Positions 7,051-47,718 of a stretch of DNA of 64,000 bases are shown here, in pieces. This DNA is from Flavobacterium fluviatile (GTDB taxonomy: Bacteria > Bacteroidota > Bacteroidia > Flavobacteriales > Flavobacteriaceae). The position numbers and the translations under genes are program-made. Location of the stretch: the NCBI RefSeq assembly GCF_010645065.1, contig NZ_JAADZW010000001.1, positions 682,001-746,000 of the forward strand, read 5' to 3'. The notes under the pieces were generated by a model. That model saw only the letters and a program-made list of their open reading frames with translations. It was not told the DNA's origin and ran no database searches. Each line of letters starts with the position of its first letter. The stretch's first letter is position 1.

Positions 7051-9360
7051 ATGAAGGTCTGTATTGCCGAAAAACCTAGTGTAGCAAGAGAAATTGCCTC
7101 CGTTTTGGGAGCCAACAACAAACACGACGGCTATTACGAAGGCAATGGTTACGCTGTTACCTACACTTTTGGACATTTATGTACCTTAAAAGAGCCCAAC
7201 GATTACAAGCCCCACTGGAAAAGCTGGGATTTGAATAACCTGCCCATGCTTCCTGAAAAATTTGAAACTAAAGTGGTTCAGAATTCGGGTATCGAAAAAC
7301 AGTTTAAAATCATAAAAAGTTTATTCGACAAAGCCGAAGTAGTCATCAACTGCGGGGATGCCGGACAGGAAGGAGAACTGATTCAGCGCTGGGTGATGAA
7401 CGAGGCTAATTATAAAGGAGAAATTCAGCGTTTATGGATTTCATCTTTGACAACCGAAGCAATCAAAGAAGGTTTTGAAAACTTAAAACCTTCTGCAAAT
7501 TATGACAATTTATATTACGCCGGATTTTCAAGAGCCATTGGAGACTGGCTTTTGGGAATGAACGCTACCCGTTTGTACACCGTAAAACATGGCGGTTACA
7601 AACAGGTTTTATCTATCGGTCGCGTTCAGACGCCAACACTTGCAATGGTAGTTGACCGCTTTAAAGAAATCGAAAACTTTAAGCCACAACCCTACTGGGA
7701 ACTACAGACATTGTACAGAGAAACCCTTTTTAGTTATGAAGATGGCCGTTTCCTGAAAAAGGAGGACGGAGAAATCCTGGCAGAAAAAGTTAAAGAAAGT
7801 GAATTCGAAATTGTTTCTGTTGATAAAAAGAACGGAAACGAATATGCTCCAAAACTTTTTGACTTAACAGGCCTACAAGTATATTGCAATCAGAAATTTG
7901 GATTCTCAGCAGAAGAAACCCTGAAAATTGCACAGACATTATACGAACAAAAAGTAATTACGTATCCCAGAGTTGATACTACTTTTTTACCGGGAGATAT
8001 TTATCTCAAAGTGCCTGGAATTCTGCAAAAACTGACAAATTATTCACATTTAACAGAACCGCTTTTAGGAAAAAAAATCAAAAAATCGCCTAAGGTTTTC
8101 AACGACAAAAAAGTAACCGATCACCATGCGATTATTCCAACAGGAATTGAGATTAATCTGCCTTACAATCAGCAACAGGTTTATGATATCATTACAAAAC
8201 GTTTTATTGCTGTTTTTTATGATGATTGTTTGGTTGCGAATACTACTGTAATAGGAAAAGCTGCTGAAGTAACATTTAAAGCAACCGGAAAGGAAATCCT
8301 GAAAAAAGGTTTCCGCATTGTTTTTGAAGACCCTAACGCCAAAGATAAAGAACCAGATCTGCTACCAAGTTTTGTTGTATGCGAAAAAGGGCCGCATGAA
8401 CCTTCGTTCTTGCAAAAAGAAACCAAACCGCCCAATCAGTTTACAGAAGCAACTCTACTGCGCGCTATGGAAACTGCCGGAAAGCAGGTCGATGATGAAG
8501 ATTTACGTGAATTGATGAAGGAGAACGGAATCGGCCGCCCATCTACACGTGCGAATATTATCGAAACACTTTTTAAACGTCAGTATATTGTTCGAAACAA
8601 AAAGCAGGTATTACCTTCACCAACCGGAATCCAGCTTATAGAAACCATTCAAAATGAATTAATCAAATCGGCAGAATTGACCGGTTCCTGGGAGAAACAA
8701 TTAAAAGACATTGAAAAAGGAACTTTCACCGCTGCAGCATTTATCAGAAACATGAAGCGCATGGTCGAAGCTTTGGTAACCGAAGTTCGGAGCGAAACGA
8801 GACATGCTAATATTTCTCATGCCTCAACGATTCAGAAACCAATTGTAAAAGTAGAAAAAGAGAAAAAGAAAGCATCCGGAATTTCGGCAGAAATTTGTCC
8901 TAAATGCCAAAAAGGAAATATTTTAAAAGGCAAATCGGCTTTTGGGTGTTCTGAGTACAAATCGGGTTGTGATTTTGTACTGCCTTTTGTTTTCCTTGAT
9001 AAAAAAATTACGGAAAGCCAATATTTACGATTGGTTCAGAAAGGTTCTACTATAAATATTAAAGGTTTTAAAACCGATTCCGGAATTGTTGAAGGTTTGA
9101 TTCGTTTTGAAGAAAATTACAAACTAAAATTAGAACCAAAGAAAACCGATAAAAAAGAAGAAACAAAAGAAAGTTCAGATATAGTAGTTTGTCCGAAATG
9201 CAAAAAAGGCACAATTTTGAAAGGCAAAACCGCTTACGGCTGTGCTGAATACAAATCGGGCTGTGATTTTAAAGTAACATTTGACGAAGTAAGAGCAAAA
9301 CTTCGAGATCAAAAACCAACAAAGGAATTGGTGTATTCTATTCTGAGTGAAAGCGTTTAA
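7051..9360 (+). CDS. topB: DNA topoisomerase III (type IA)
   Basis: The 769-residue type IA topoisomerase relaxes and decatenates DNA through a 5'-phosphotyrosine link. The N-terminus (MKVCIAEKPSVAREIASVLG) opens the Toprim domain, whose acidic motif is CGDAGQEGELI at about 101-111 instead of the common DxDREGE. The active-site Tyr is Y305 in VITYPRVDTTFLPGDI. GRPSTRANIIETLFKR follows further on. Two C-terminal zinc-ribbon-like repeats both contain CPKC...GC.EYKSGCDF, at roughly 615-645 and 715-740. It is a single-gene unit. Confidence 0.93.
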   Translation: MKVCIAEKPSVAREIASVLGANNKHDGYYEGNGYAVTYTFGHLCTLKEPNDYKPHWKSWDLNNLPMLPEKFETKVVQNSGIEKQFKIIKSLFDKAEVVINCGDAGQEGELIQRWVMNEANYKGEIQRLWISSLTTEAIKEGFENLKPSANYDNLYYAGFSRAIGDWLLGMNATRLYTVKHGGYKQVLSIGRVQTPTLAMVVDRFKEIENFKPQPYWELQTLYRETLFSYEDGRFLKKEDGEILAEKVKESEFEIVSVDKKNGNEYAPKLFDLTGLQVYCNQKFGFSAEETLKIAQTLYEQKVITYPRVDTTFLPGDIYLKVPGILQKLTNYSHLTEPLLGKKIKKSPKVFNDKKVTDHHAIIPTGIEINLPYNQQQVYDIITKRFIAVFYDDCLVANTTVIGKAAEVTFKATGKEILKKGFRIVFEDPNAKDKEPDLLPSFVVCEKGPHEPSFLQKETKPPNQFTEATLLRAMETAGKQVDDEDLRELMKENGIGRPSTRANIIETLFKRQYIVRNKKQVLPSPTGIQLIETIQNELIKSAELTGSWEKQLKDIEKGTFTAAAFIRNMKRMVEALVTEVRSETRHANISHASTIQKPIVKVEKEKKKASGISAEICPKCQKGNILKGKSAFGCSEYKSGCDFVLPFVFLDKKITESQYLRLVQKGSTINIKGFKTDSGIVEGLIRFEENYKLKLEPKKTDKKEETKESSDIVVCPKCKKGTILKGKTAYGCAEYKSGCDFKVTFDEVRAKLRDQKPTKELVYSILSESV

Positions 9361-42448: not shown

Positions 42449-43150
42449 TTATACATTATAACAATACTGATACAATGATTTAAAATGCTCTTTCATCTTT
42501 TGTTTTGCCAAAGTTGGATTTTGATCTTTTATTGCATTATATATATTCAAATGCTCTTCAATTCCTTTTACAGCCTGATTTTCATCACAAACATGATACT
42601 TTTCAAAATTGGTAATAATTTCAGGTGTAATGATTAGCATTAATGTGTTTATTGTGCTATTTCCGCTTGCTTTCGCGATGGCTAAGTGAAAAAGCAAATC
42701 TTCCTGAACCGCTTCCTCTCCATTCATTGCCTTTTCTGAATAAGCATCCAAAGCTAATTTCATTTTTTTTAAATCATCCTGAGTTCTCCGAATACAGGCT
42801 AAACGAACCGTCTTTAATTCTAACAGGATTCTGGTTTCAACTAAAGATTTAAAATCAGACTCTTCTAATCTTAAAATGTCCTCTATAATTCCGTTCATTG
42901 CAATTACACCAATGTTGGCAACAAAAGTCCCGCTTTGGGGCATAGAATTCAATATACCGTAAAACTCTAATTTTTGAATAGCATCACGAACTGAATTCCT
43001 GCTAACATTAAATTTATCAGACAACATTCTCTCTGAAGGTAATTTATCTCCAGGTTCTAAATTTTTATAATTCATATAATCCCTTATTTGTGCGATTATA
43101 GTATTTATGATCTCCTTATTGTCTTTTTTGGTAAGTACCTCTAAATTCAT
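42449..43150 (-). CDS. FadR-type GntR regulator (paralogue 1)
   Basis: The protein has 233 residues. An N-terminal winged HTH (DKLPSERMLSDKFNVSRNSV then RDAIQKLEFYGIL) is followed by an FCD-type helical ligand domain with EDLLFHLAIAKASGN and later His in EEHLNIY and KEHFKSL, plausible metal/ligand residues. It aligns without gaps to paralogue 2 (44034) over the full length, most residues identical. It likely represses alginate genes until uronate binds. A palindromic operator lies just upstream, suggesting autoregulation. Confidence 0.93.
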   Translation of the reverse strand: MNLEVLTKKDNKEIINTIIAQIRDYMNYKNLEPGDKLPSERMLSDKFNVSRNSVRDAIQKLEFYGILNSMPQSGTFVANIGVIAMNGIIEDILRLEESDFKSLVETRILLELKTVRLACIRRTQDDLKKMKLALDAYSEKAMNGEEAVQEDLLFHLAIAKASGNSTINTLMLIITPEIITNFEKYHVCDENQAVKGIEEHLNIYNAIKDQNPTLAKQKMKEHFKSLYQYCYNV

Positions 43151-44033: not shown

Positions 44034-44735
44034 TTATAAATTATAGCAATATTGATACAAAACTTTAAAGTGATCCTTCATTTTTTGCTTAGCCAGTTGA
44101 GGATTCTTTTGTTGAATTGCTTCATATATTTCTAAATGTTCCTGAACACCTTTTTGAGCCTGGTTTTCATCACATACGTGATATTTATTAAAGTTGGTTA
44201 TGATCTCGGGCGTAATCAATAACATTAAAGTATTAATTGTACTATTTGCACTTGCTTTTGCAATAGCTAAATGAAATAATAAATCTTCCTGTACAGCATC
44301 ATCTCCATTCATAGTTTTTTTCGTGTAAGCATCAAGGGCAGCTTTTATTTTCTCTAAATCAGCATCTGTTCTGCGAATGGCTGCTAAACGAACAGTCTTT
44401 AATTCTAGCAATATTCTGGTTTCTACTAATGATTTAAAATCTGACTCTTCTAGCTTTAAAATATCTTCAATGATTCCATTTATCGCAATCTGACCGATAT
44501 TGGCGACGAAAGTTCCACTTTGTGGAATAGAATTTAAAATACCATAAAACTCTAATTTCTGAATAGCTTCACGAATAGCACCTCTGCTCACTTCAAATTT
44601 TTCAGACAGCATTCTTTCAGAGGGAAGTTTATCTCCTGATTCTAAATTTTTATAAAGAATATAGTCCCTAATTTTAGAAATAATAGTATTTAAAACTTCC
44701 TTATTATCTTTCTTGCTAAGAATCTCTAAATTCAT
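44034..44735 (-). CDS. FadR-type GntR regulator (paralogue 2)
   Basis: The 233-residue protein has the same winged HTH (DKLPSERMLSEKFEVSRGAI) and FCD domain as paralogue 1, with a gapless full-length alignment. The recognition helix differs slightly (EVSRGAIREA against NVSRNSVRDA), so operator preference may differ. A tandem duplication is likely, separated by the 880-bp gap. No TTGG/CCAA operator is visible in front of this gene, unlike the other two paralogues. Confidence 0.93.
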   Translation of the reverse strand: MNLEILSKKDNKEVLNTIISKIRDYILYKNLESGDKLPSERMLSEKFEVSRGAIREAIQKLEFYGILNSIPQSGTFVANIGQIAINGIIEDILKLEESDFKSLVETRILLELKTVRLAAIRRTDADLEKIKAALDAYTKKTMNGDDAVQEDLLFHLAIAKASANSTINTLMLLITPEIITNFNKYHVCDENQAQKGVQEHLEIYEAIQQKNPQLAKQKMKDHFKVLYQYCYNL

Positions 44736-45060: not shown

Positions 45061-45322
45061 AGTCAATCGTATGTAGCCCGGTCGTTTGATAAACATTGGA
45101 ATGAAGAACAAAATCGTGAGTTTTTTTACCAATGTTTTGAAAATTTCTCCACTTCAACTTGCTGACCTTTATGGAAATGGCTGGCGAGTTGAGCTTTTCT
45201 TCAAATGATTAAAACAACATCTGTGAATTAAAAAATTTCGGGGAACTATTAAAAATGCTGTTCGCATTCAAATCTATCTTGCCATATTCACTTACTGTCT
45301 GGTTGCATTATCCAAAAGACAC
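45061..45322 (+). mobile_element. Remnant of an IS4-type transposase
   Basis: Frame 1 gives SQSYVARSFDKHWNEEQNRE, and after a slip in a T-run the next frame gives FFTNVLKISPLQLADLYGNG, WRVELFFK*LKQHL*IKKFR and GTIKNAVRIQIYLAIFTYCL. The C-terminal YREK-type words of IS4 transposases (ELFFKWLKQHL, KKFWGT) are clear, but there are two TGA stops and one frameshift. No ends or target duplications are seen. The rest of 44736-45695 shows no gene that I can support. Confidence 0.8.
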
Positions 45323-45695
45323 GCGACCTGCTATAAATATGTATAATTTTTACAAATTTTGAGTGTATAATTGAAGTTTAAAACGTGCTTTAGAGACGTT
45401 TTTGATGTAAATTTAGCTATCTTTGGCTGCAATGGTGATTATGAAACTATATATTTAATCATTTCAGAATGTAGTGAAGCGAATTCATTACTACAATTAA
45501 ATGTATTTAGCGTTTTAAATTTCCTTAAGACGTAAAGATCAGACAAATAAAGTCTATGAATTATGCTTTTTAAAGGAGAAATCTATGCAGTCTTTTATGC
45601 AATATATCAGTGTGTTGCGCAAAAGCAATTAGTCGATGCAAAACACAAGTACTGTATTATTGCTGTTATAATTTTATAATTTTACAAAAAGAACA

Positions 45696-46505
45696 ATGTC
45701 ACAAGATATTCTAAAACGAAACAATGTTATTTTAAAGGGGCAGGGTCACCAGATAATGCTGTTTGCTCATGGATTTGGATGTGACCAAAATATGTGGAGG
45801 TTTGTTACTCCTGCCTTTGAAGAAGAATACAAGGTTGTACTCTTTGATTATGTTGGTTGCGGAAAATCAGACACTGTCGCTTATCATGCTGATCGTTATG
45901 CAAGCCTTCACGGATATGCACAGGATGTCCTGGAAATCTGTGCTGCTCTTGAAGCTGAGGAAATTATTTTCGTAGGTCATAGCGTCAGCGCAATGATCGG
46001 GCTTTTGGCTGCTGTAGAAAATCCTGATATTTTCTCCTGCATGATTTTTATCGGTCCCTCTGCCCGATATCTAAATGATGTGGATTATATGGGAGGATTC
46101 TCCCGCGAAGATCTTGAAGGTCTTCTTGAGGTAATGGAAAACAATTTTATCGGTTGGGCTAATTTTTTAGCCCCAGTTGTGATGAAAAATGAAGAGCGCG
46201 CTGAATTAACACAAGAACTTAAGGAAAGTTTCTGCTCAACCGACCCGGTGATTACCAGAAGGTTTGCTGAAGTTACTTTCTTCTCGGACAACAGGGAAGA
46301 CCTTTCGAATCTAACCATGCCATGCTTAATTTTACAATGTTCGGATGATGCAATTGCACCTGAAGAGGTTGGCCTGTACATACATCATAAAATTAAAGGA
46401 AGCACATTTGAAAAAATGAATGCCACCGGACACTGCCCCCATATGAGCGATCCCGAAGAAACGGTGAAGCTCATTCAGAAATTCCTAAACCAGACTACCT
46501 ATTAA
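45696..46505 (+). CDS. RsbQ-like alpha/beta hydrolase
   Basis: The 269-residue cytoplasmic protein resembles Bacillus subtilis RsbQ along its length (FAHGFGCDQNMW, LFDYVGCGKSD, YAQDVLE, FCSTDPV, GHCPHMSDPEET). The triad is S96 in GHSVSA, Asp near 218 in CSDDAIAPEE, and H246 in TGHCPH. RsbQ is a positive partner of the PAS phosphatase RsbP in energy-stress signalling and is related to plant D14/KAI2 receptors. Here the next gene has a PAS domain and overlaps or closely follows it. It might make or sense a small ligand. Codon use looks less AT-rich than neighbours. Confidence 0.92.
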   Translation: MSQDILKRNNVILKGQGHQIMLFAHGFGCDQNMWRFVTPAFEEEYKVVLFDYVGCGKSDTVAYHADRYASLHGYAQDVLEICAALEAEEIIFVGHSVSAMIGLLAAVENPDIFSCMIFIGPSARYLNDVDYMGGFSREDLEGLLEVMENNFIGWANFLAPVVMKNEERAELTQELKESFCSTDPVITRRFAEVTFFSDNREDLSNLTMPCLILQCSDDAIAPEEVGLYIHHKIKGSTFEKMNATGHCPHMSDPEETVKLIQKFLNQTTY

Positions 46506-46590
46506 ATCCGAAAACCCTCATCCGCATTGGGAGGATATTTACAATTCTGTCCCCTGCTTTCTGTTTTCATTTTCAGATAATGGAAAGATA

Positions 46591-47718
46591 GTGAAAATGA
46601 ATACTGAAATGCGATTAAAACTGGGCGTTGATAACGCTGTAATAGGAAGCCGTATAGAGGATTTACTCACTGTGGGCAGCAGGATATTTTTTCAGACCCA
46701 CTTTTATCCTTTGATAAAAATGAAAAAATCGGTGCGCGAAATCTTTCTCTCCTTTAAAGGACAAGGCGATTCTATTCCGGTATTATTAAACGTTGAAGTT
46801 ACGCAAGGTGAAGATGACACAGAGATTCACTGCGGAGGCATGATTATCTCAAACCGAAACCGATTTGAGAAAGAACTCATGGAGGCCAAGAGAGCCGCTG
46901 AGGAAACCCTGGCTGAAAATGCAGAGCTTATTGAAGTAAAAAATGCGCTGCTGGAGCATCAGAAAGATCTTGAAATTCAATTTAGAAAACTTAAATCCAT
47001 TAAAGAACAGCAGCAGGAGATATTCAAAATCATTGCCCATCATCTTCAGGAACCGCTAAGAAAAACAGTCTTTACAGGCAACTTCCTTTTAGCAGAGTGC
47101 GGAAAAATTGAAAACGGTGTGGCTGAAAAAATCGGTAAAATAATCAACTACTCCTCCGAGATGCGTGAAATGCTTTTGACCTTGCAGCGCTATGAACAAT
47201 TGGAAAATAAAAACCTCTCGTATGTTCCAATACAGCTTGATGTAGTAGTGCAGCAGGCTATTAGGGAAGTAAACACCAACGATAAGAGCATAGTGATAAG
47301 TTATCCCTCGCGCTGCCCCATCTTTTATGCAGACCAGCGCCTGCTGACGCATTTCTTCGTAGAACTCATATGCAATTCGATAAGTAACAGAGATGTTCAA
47401 AAAGAGAATTTATACATTGAAATTTCAATGATTGAAACCAAAAAAAATATTTTTATGGAATCATCGAATAAATATCAATACGAAAAATTTGTAAAGATAA
47501 CCTATACAGACAACGGGGAAGGCTTCCTAAAAGATTCCTCGCTAGTGTTTCAGATTCTGCAGAAGTCAGCACAGTTTAATAAAATTAGTATTGGAATGGC
47601 TTTTTGCAAACGCATTATAGAGAAACATCTGGGAACTATTGTGGCCAAATCCGTCAAAGGGAAAGGTGTCGGGTACACCATTCTGCTTCCTCACAATAAG
47701 CCGCAGGACGTTTTATAA
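46591..47718 (+). CDS. PAS domain histidine kinase (RsbP-like front, kinase back)
   Basis: From GTG 46591 the product has 375 residues: second half of a PAS domain (IEDLLTVGSRIFFQTHFYPL), a coiled coil (about 92-145), a HisKA-like box IIAHHLQEPLRKT (H150; the common SHDLQEPLRK has Asp where this has H151), and an HATPase with N-box CNSISN, G1 DNGEGF and G2 GKGVGY. The first half of the PAS domain is encoded just upstream in the same frame (HPHWEDIYNSVPCFLFSFSD), open from 46489 with no ATG. True start may be an ATT at 46501 overlapping the rsbQ-like stop. No response regulator is adjacent. Confidence 0.85.
   Translation: MKMNTEMRLKLGVDNAVIGSRIEDLLTVGSRIFFQTHFYPLIKMKKSVREIFLSFKGQGDSIPVLLNVEVTQGEDDTEIHCGGMIISNRNRFEKELMEAKRAAEETLAENAELIEVKNALLEHQKDLEIQFRKLKSIKEQQQEIFKIIAHHLQEPLRKTVFTGNFLLAECGKIENGVAEKIGKIINYSSEMREMLLTLQRYEQLENKNLSYVPIQLDVVVQQAIREVNTNDKSIVISYPSRCPIFYADQRLLTHFFVELICNSISNRDVQKENLYIEISMIETKKNIFMESSNKYQYEKFVKITYTDNGEGFLKDSSLVFQILQKSAQFNKISIGMAFCKRIIEKHLGTIVAKSVKGKGVGYTILLPHNKPQDVL

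Follow-up and report, generated by a model that had tools for sequence, protein, structure and literature searches.

The window, i.e. the whole 64-kb stretch of DNA analysed here, contains a gene pair which we interpret as a two-gene sensing module of an RsbQ-like hydrolase and a PAS-histidine kinase, in which the kinase would be translated by a restart at an overlapping AUU codon and would signal to a distant response regulator (probability roughly 0.65). The arrangement as such is already known, as the covered sections of a 2011 study by Nadezhdin, Brody and Price describe it (PMC3183031). New in relation to the literature searched are the AUU start with its -5 overlap, the lack of a linked regulator in the clade of the window and the motif loss in many members. 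The features of the pair are as follows:

45696..46505, plus strand: rsbQ-like alpha/beta hydrolase gene, 269 aa, triad S96-D218-H246 (from the translation and phmmer)
46501..47718, plus strand: histidine kinase gene with PAS domain and probable coiled coil, 405 codons when counted from the proposed ATT (from frame constraint and the AlphaFold model)
46501..46505, plus strand: ATTAA overlap, in which the proposed start ATT (46501-46503) shares a T with the hydrolase stop TAA (46503-46505)
46525..46845, plus strand: RsbP-type PAS domain, approximately residues 9-115 (Pfam PAS 9-114 and class residues)
46591..46593, plus strand: GTG, first in-frame codon of canonical start type, rejected as start since it falls at residue 31, within the PAS fold
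46855..47025, plus strand: long helix and probable coiled coil from PAS to DHp, approximately residues 119-175 (from the modelled helix 119-199)
47038..47040, plus strand: codon of the predicted phospho-accepting His180 (IAHHLQEP), invariant in the 33-row and 81-row alignments
47326..47694, plus strand: CA (HATPase) domain with N-box Asn, DNGEGF and a partly altered G2 box (Pfam HATPase_c 278-398 and motifs)

The hydrolase was found to be similar to RsbQ over its full length and nearer to it than to the plant receptors KAI2/D14, which belong to the same alpha/beta hydrolase family. Among solved structures, RsbQ (1wom) was the top phmmer match with an E-value of 2.3e-100 over residues 4-264, followed by Olei00960 (3qvm, 2.4e-78), plant KAI2-like proteins from 1.7e-62 and weaker matches after these. 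S96 is held in a GHS motif, and D218 and H246 align with the remaining residues of the triad, which we take to be S96/D219/H247 in RsbQ numbering. These results bear out the sequence-only reading, which had matched the protein to RsbQ along its length including the S96 triad. In contrast to the plant receptors, the partner of the hydrolase is a PAS kinase.

This partner had been described as a protein with the PAS domain and coiled coil of RsbP that ends in HisKA-HATPase instead of PP2C. The description holds on the basis of near-threshold Pfam matches, the AlphaFold model and Foldseek. Both Pfam matches were slightly below threshold, with 21.9 bits for PAS (cut-off 22.6) and 25.5 bits for HATPase_c at residues 278-398 (cut-off 26.4), and HisKA was absent from the Pfam listing, so that the pair of HisKA and HATPase_c above cut-off was not obtained for this protein. 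Pfam likewise detected no SpoIIE or PPM phosphatase output in it, as would be expected of an RsbP. The AlphaFold model, built from 33 aligned sequences (mean pLDDT 85, pTM 0.57), consists of a PAS domain, a long helix predicted at residues 119-199 between PAS and output, a helical hairpin and a CA domain, and in Foldseek PAS/LOV histidine kinases (4gcz, 8a6x) and HK853 ranked high. Moreover, the phospho-His, the N-box Asn and DxGxG (as DNGEGF) are all kept. Compared with RsbQ-RsbP of Bacillus subtilis, the pair has the hydrolase, the PAS domain and a probable coiled coil in common, whereas the output is a HATPase here and a PPM phosphatase there.

In the sections covered, Nadezhdin, Brody and Price reported 45 pairs of RsbQ and RsbP-PAS with PPM phosphatase, histidine kinase or GGDEF/diguanylate cyclase outputs, showed that RsbQ interacts with the PAS domain of RsbP and that F55A disrupts this interaction, and called the cue of the module 'mysterious' (PMC3183031). 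They also proposed the idea at which the sequence-only reading had arrived, a common input with a swapped output. The reading of the pair as RsbQ with an RsbP-like PAS and an exchanged kinase output fits all the evidence, but the combination is not new. All ten class positions of RsbP-PAS that were checked are present in the kinase (C10, F13, L48, R53, F55, F56, H59, P62, E72 and P86); the class residues come from a figure legend of PMC3183031, and the RsbP numbering was transferred through locus L097 in place of B. subtilis RsbP itself, which lies outside the alignment. As in the published histidine kinase modules, the RsbP-PAS is encoded directly downstream of rsbQ, is N-terminal in its protein and is followed by a probable coiled coil and a histidine kinase; compared with them, the kinase start here is an ATT with a five-base overlap with the rsbQ stop. 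The covered sections of that paper make no mention of start codons or response-regulator neighbours, and its main text does not name Bacteroidota (no matches for 'bacteroid' or 'flavobact').

Conservation of the pair elsewhere had been suggested as a check, and the objection that it is not conserved fails. Of the 80 hydrolase loci compared, the best of 579 confirmed relatives in a species-level genome collection, 76 have an RsbP-PAS-like neighbour (threshold 1e-5); the neighbour profile was built from 27 partner frames, hence this count is partly circular. The four exceptions were L036 (contig end), L087 (no next frame of 150 codons), L066 (5.3e-5) and L095 (no match). Chance neighbourhood was rejected because of this recurrence. 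Among the 76 partners and that of the window, Pfam identified HATPase_c in 56/77, HisKA in 44/77, GGDEF in 14/77, a receiver in 8/77 and SpoIIE in 1/77. The distribution of the pair is sporadic: at E 1e-60 the hydrolase occurs in 8 of 299 genomes from the genus, and at E 1e-80 in 23 of 397 from the family, the window's own genome being counted in both. At three Paenibacillus loci (L073, L074 and L080), the frame after rsbQ encodes a PAS protein of just 171-172 residues, and this frame contains no output domain.

An acidic residue after the phospho-His and an intact G2 box matter in histidine kinases, and the window kinase shows neither. We compared motifs in 81 aligned kinase rows, two of them second copies, with GGDEF-type, PPM-type and some other partners left out. 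The phospho-His was kept in all 81 rows, and the following residue was Asp in 51, Glu in 24, Asn in four, Thr in one and His in one, the last being the window kinase (IAHHLQEP). The first glycine of the G2 box is missing in the window kinase and likewise in L018, L020, L106, L112 and L113. Strict DxGxG was missing in 20 of the 81 rows. Most of these losses concern only the first glycine, while L028, L108, L121, L122 and L126 lose more, and the N-box Asn is gone as well in L108, L121, L122 and L126. A tree of 71 hydrolase rows, computed with a quick method, placed the window in a group of 26 rows (SH-aLRT 98), and 16 of the 20 rows without strict DxGxG belong to this clade.

The clade also stands out in its neighbourhood. 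With a locally built receiver profile, single-domain response regulators were found within tens of bases of many pairs outside the clade, e.g. at L021, L033, L035, L045, L047, L048 and L049. Within it, a neighbouring regulator was missing in 24 of 26 rows and present in L098 and L126, with labels set on the tree by hand and an upstream flank of just 279 bases at L059. In L098, from a genome of the same genus (G008), a single-domain response regulator lies at 8498-8962 on the same strand upstream of rsbQ. The window genome (G000) contains no close homolog of this pair-adjacent regulator (best 32% identity), and relocation of a linked regulator elsewhere in G000 was rejected for this reason. No PF00072 match was found in the 64-kb window, and the nearest one in the window genome (C29:679709-680059) lies about 47.6 kb from the pair, which agrees with the earlier statement that no response regulator is near.

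Taken at face value, these losses could mean that the kinase is a pseudokinase, is becoming one or is a decaying gene, and that the module senses without phosphotransfer in this clade. The 16 of 26 clade rows without strict DxGxG, the five loci with losses beyond the first glycine, the four without the N-box Asn, the 24 rows without a neighbouring regulator, the His after the phospho-His and altered G2 box of the window kinase, and in-frame stops in L019 and L111 all favour this explanation. However, the window kinase keeps His180, the N-box Asn and DNGEGF, the phospho-His is retained throughout the 81 rows, and the PAS-kinase frame is under purifying selection in both of its parts (pN/pS 0.47 and 0.33). 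We therefore regard loss of kinase function as unlikely, though it is an alternative that carries weight. Several of the same observations count against the preferred reading of a module that signals to a distant regulator, namely the His after the phospho-His, the lost G2 glycine, the absence of a receiver within about 47 kb, the lack of a close homolog of the L098 regulator in the window genome, the DxGxG loss in 16 of 26 rows and the stops in L019 and L111. The motif loss and these stops may reflect decay of the kinase in this group, and to judge from its sequences the window clade in general seems to be relaxing phosphotransfer function. For the window kinase itself phosphotransfer is likely, as the default expectation given its motifs, though not secure. 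The earlier phrase 'wired to phosphotransfer' is accordingly retained no more firmly than as likely for the kinase, in view of the few linked regulators, the DxGxG losses and the odd residue after the phospho-His.

The kinase had been taken to start at GTG 46591, which we consider wrong. Its frame is open from 46489 to 47718 and thus opens just 12 bases ahead of the ATT. In the window, this frame has no ATG, GTG or TTG ahead of the PAS domain, and GTG 46591 is the first to occur. A start at this GTG, or at ATG 46597, with a truncated PAS domain would have in its favour that these are the first canonical start codons in frame. Nevertheless, it would delete a helix, most of two strands and the class Cys: residues 10-16, 20-25 and 29-33 are modelled as one helix and two strands with block pLDDT values of 83-92, and pLDDT is below 50 for residues 1-7. 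Furthermore, in the eight nearest pairs the pooled pN/pS of the kinase frame was 0.47 upstream and 0.33 downstream of the GTG, whereas the two shifted frames gave 1.01 and 1.13. Since the upstream frame is constrained and the model is structured there, the GTG start is very unlikely, and ATT 46501 is the most likely start as judged from the sequence.

In all eight nearest pairs (window, L018, L019, L020, L106, L111, L112 and L113), an ATT in the kinase frame lies across the rsbQ stop, with a five-base overlap. The junction reads ATTAA in seven and ATTAG in one, and the last rsbQ codon varies between TAT and CAT. The ATT itself was deliberately treated as a weak argument, because these relatives are not independent and 25 of 111 ORFs of at least 150 aa from eight sampled stretches (stop-to-stop frames, not curated genes) end in NAT anyway. 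L106 has an in-frame GTG shortly before PAS as well, and L030, which starts with ATG, sits among the ATT rows on a long branch of the quick tree. L019 and L111 each have one in-frame stop within the kinase PAS, while the remainder of the frame shown is intact; sequencing error and recent decay both fit.

Among 79 kinase-type partner rows surveyed, ten had no NTG codon four or more residues ahead of the PAS proline, i.e. the window, L018, L020, L112, L113, L028, L107, L108, L032 and L088. Nine of these are distinct, as L107 is L028 again (elsewhere among the 79, L114 repeats L053); L019 and L111 were excluded for their broken frames. L028, L108 and L032 have a common near-cognate codon nine bases further upstream, which is ATC, ATC and ATA, respectively. 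The window kinase gene shares its near-cognate codon with its nearest relatives and has no canonical start ahead of its conserved PAS domain. In L088, a Pyrinomonadaceae MAG, the kinase frame also has no NTG before PAS, and a candidate ATA follows a purine-rich AAGGAG.

Near-cognate initiation has been described for regulatory genes. According to the parts of PMC5472188 considered here, infC starts with ATT in E. coli and with ATC in Streptomyces, and IF3 holds down the GTC-started regulator sigR and so sets a protein ratio; a functional AUU start was reported for RcsD-Hpt in the part of PMC10191623 consulted. Our candidate shares with these the non-NTG start and the regulatory role, but differs in the five-base overlap of its ATT with the upstream stop. 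In infC of the window genome, G268 and G714, we found no ATG, GTG or TTG in the first 30 codons and a common ATA-GCA-AT[A/T]; three of four searched genomes gave a readable frame (L147, L148 and L149 for G714, G268 and the window genome), while the pattern missed that of G642. Near-cognate initiation is therefore plausible in this organism. As stated in the portion of PMC10666635 covered, -4 overlaps outnumber -5 overlaps more than 1,000-fold, the latter being an almost absent type that 'seems to completely' be excluded with canonical codons, and ATT is named as the codon by which -5 overlaps could arise. The same portion gives ATT about 0.3% of the efficiency of ATG in E. coli, which, along with the ATG-started L030 among ATT rows and the GTG of L106, is a further point against our reading. 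An AUU start in the RsbQ-PAS family was not found in the titles and abstract openings searched in the open-licence literature.

The pair is located within an alginate-use island (window 30924-62910) with two Alginate_lyase2 genes, a chondroitinase-B-type gene, two SusC/SusD pairs, an MFS transporter and SDR genes. Two very similar GntR/FCD regulators are arranged in tandem at 42449-43150 and 44034-44735, with a very AT-rich spacer (23% GC) of about 880 bases between them. Just upstream of the pair, at 45100-45330, a frame with a few stops reads LADLYGNGWRVELFFK... and presumably represents a transposase tail. The GntR regulators, SusC/SusD genes and alginate lyase genes on both sides might suggest that the pair belongs locally to the island and senses an alginate product. 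However, apart from weak SDR and kinase paralogs, no window neighbour recurs beside the pair in 12 related loci, and this highly improbable explanation was rejected.

A hydrolase-kinase fusion through programmed +1 frameshifting close to the end of rsbQ would be compatible with the 17-base frame overlap in the window and the lack of a canonical start, but it is scarcely credible and was rejected, as no common re-pairing slippery site is evident by eye, a slip from the last rsbQ codon TAT or CAT onto ATT would probably mispair, and the junction differs in L028, L108 and L032.

In the module proposed here, the hydrolase would bind, and perhaps hydrolyse, a small-molecule ligand in its Ser-His-Asp pocket. 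By analogy with the work on B. subtilis, it would touch the F-alpha helix of the kinase PAS and would convey ligand binding or the product to this domain. The fold suggests that the coiled coil would relay the change to the DHp/ATPase core, where it would set the autophosphorylation of His180, and the phosphate would then pass to its target, a response regulator encoded elsewhere. From the junction we infer that ribosomes ending rsbQ would restart at the overlapping AUU and translate the kinase. Such a restart would make the kinase scarcer than the hydrolase, couple the supply of the two proteins and render kinase synthesis sensitive to IF3. We give an even chance to the wider proposal that the conserved -5 AUU overlap sets kinase synthesis under gating by IF3 with the hydrolase in excess, that AUC or AUA serves in related lineages, and that the clade has dropped its dedicated regulator and is eroding its ATP-binding motif, which would leave a distant regulator or an output other than phosphotransfer.

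Plant hormone receptors are related to the RsbQ-like hydrolases, and a compact two-gene kinase module would allow a search for ligands by kinase read-out. The junction, if true, would represent a natural conserved -5 overlap with an AUU start. Gene callers limited to ATG, GTG and TTG would clip the front of the PAS domain including the class-defining Cys, and members of the family would thereby be hidden.
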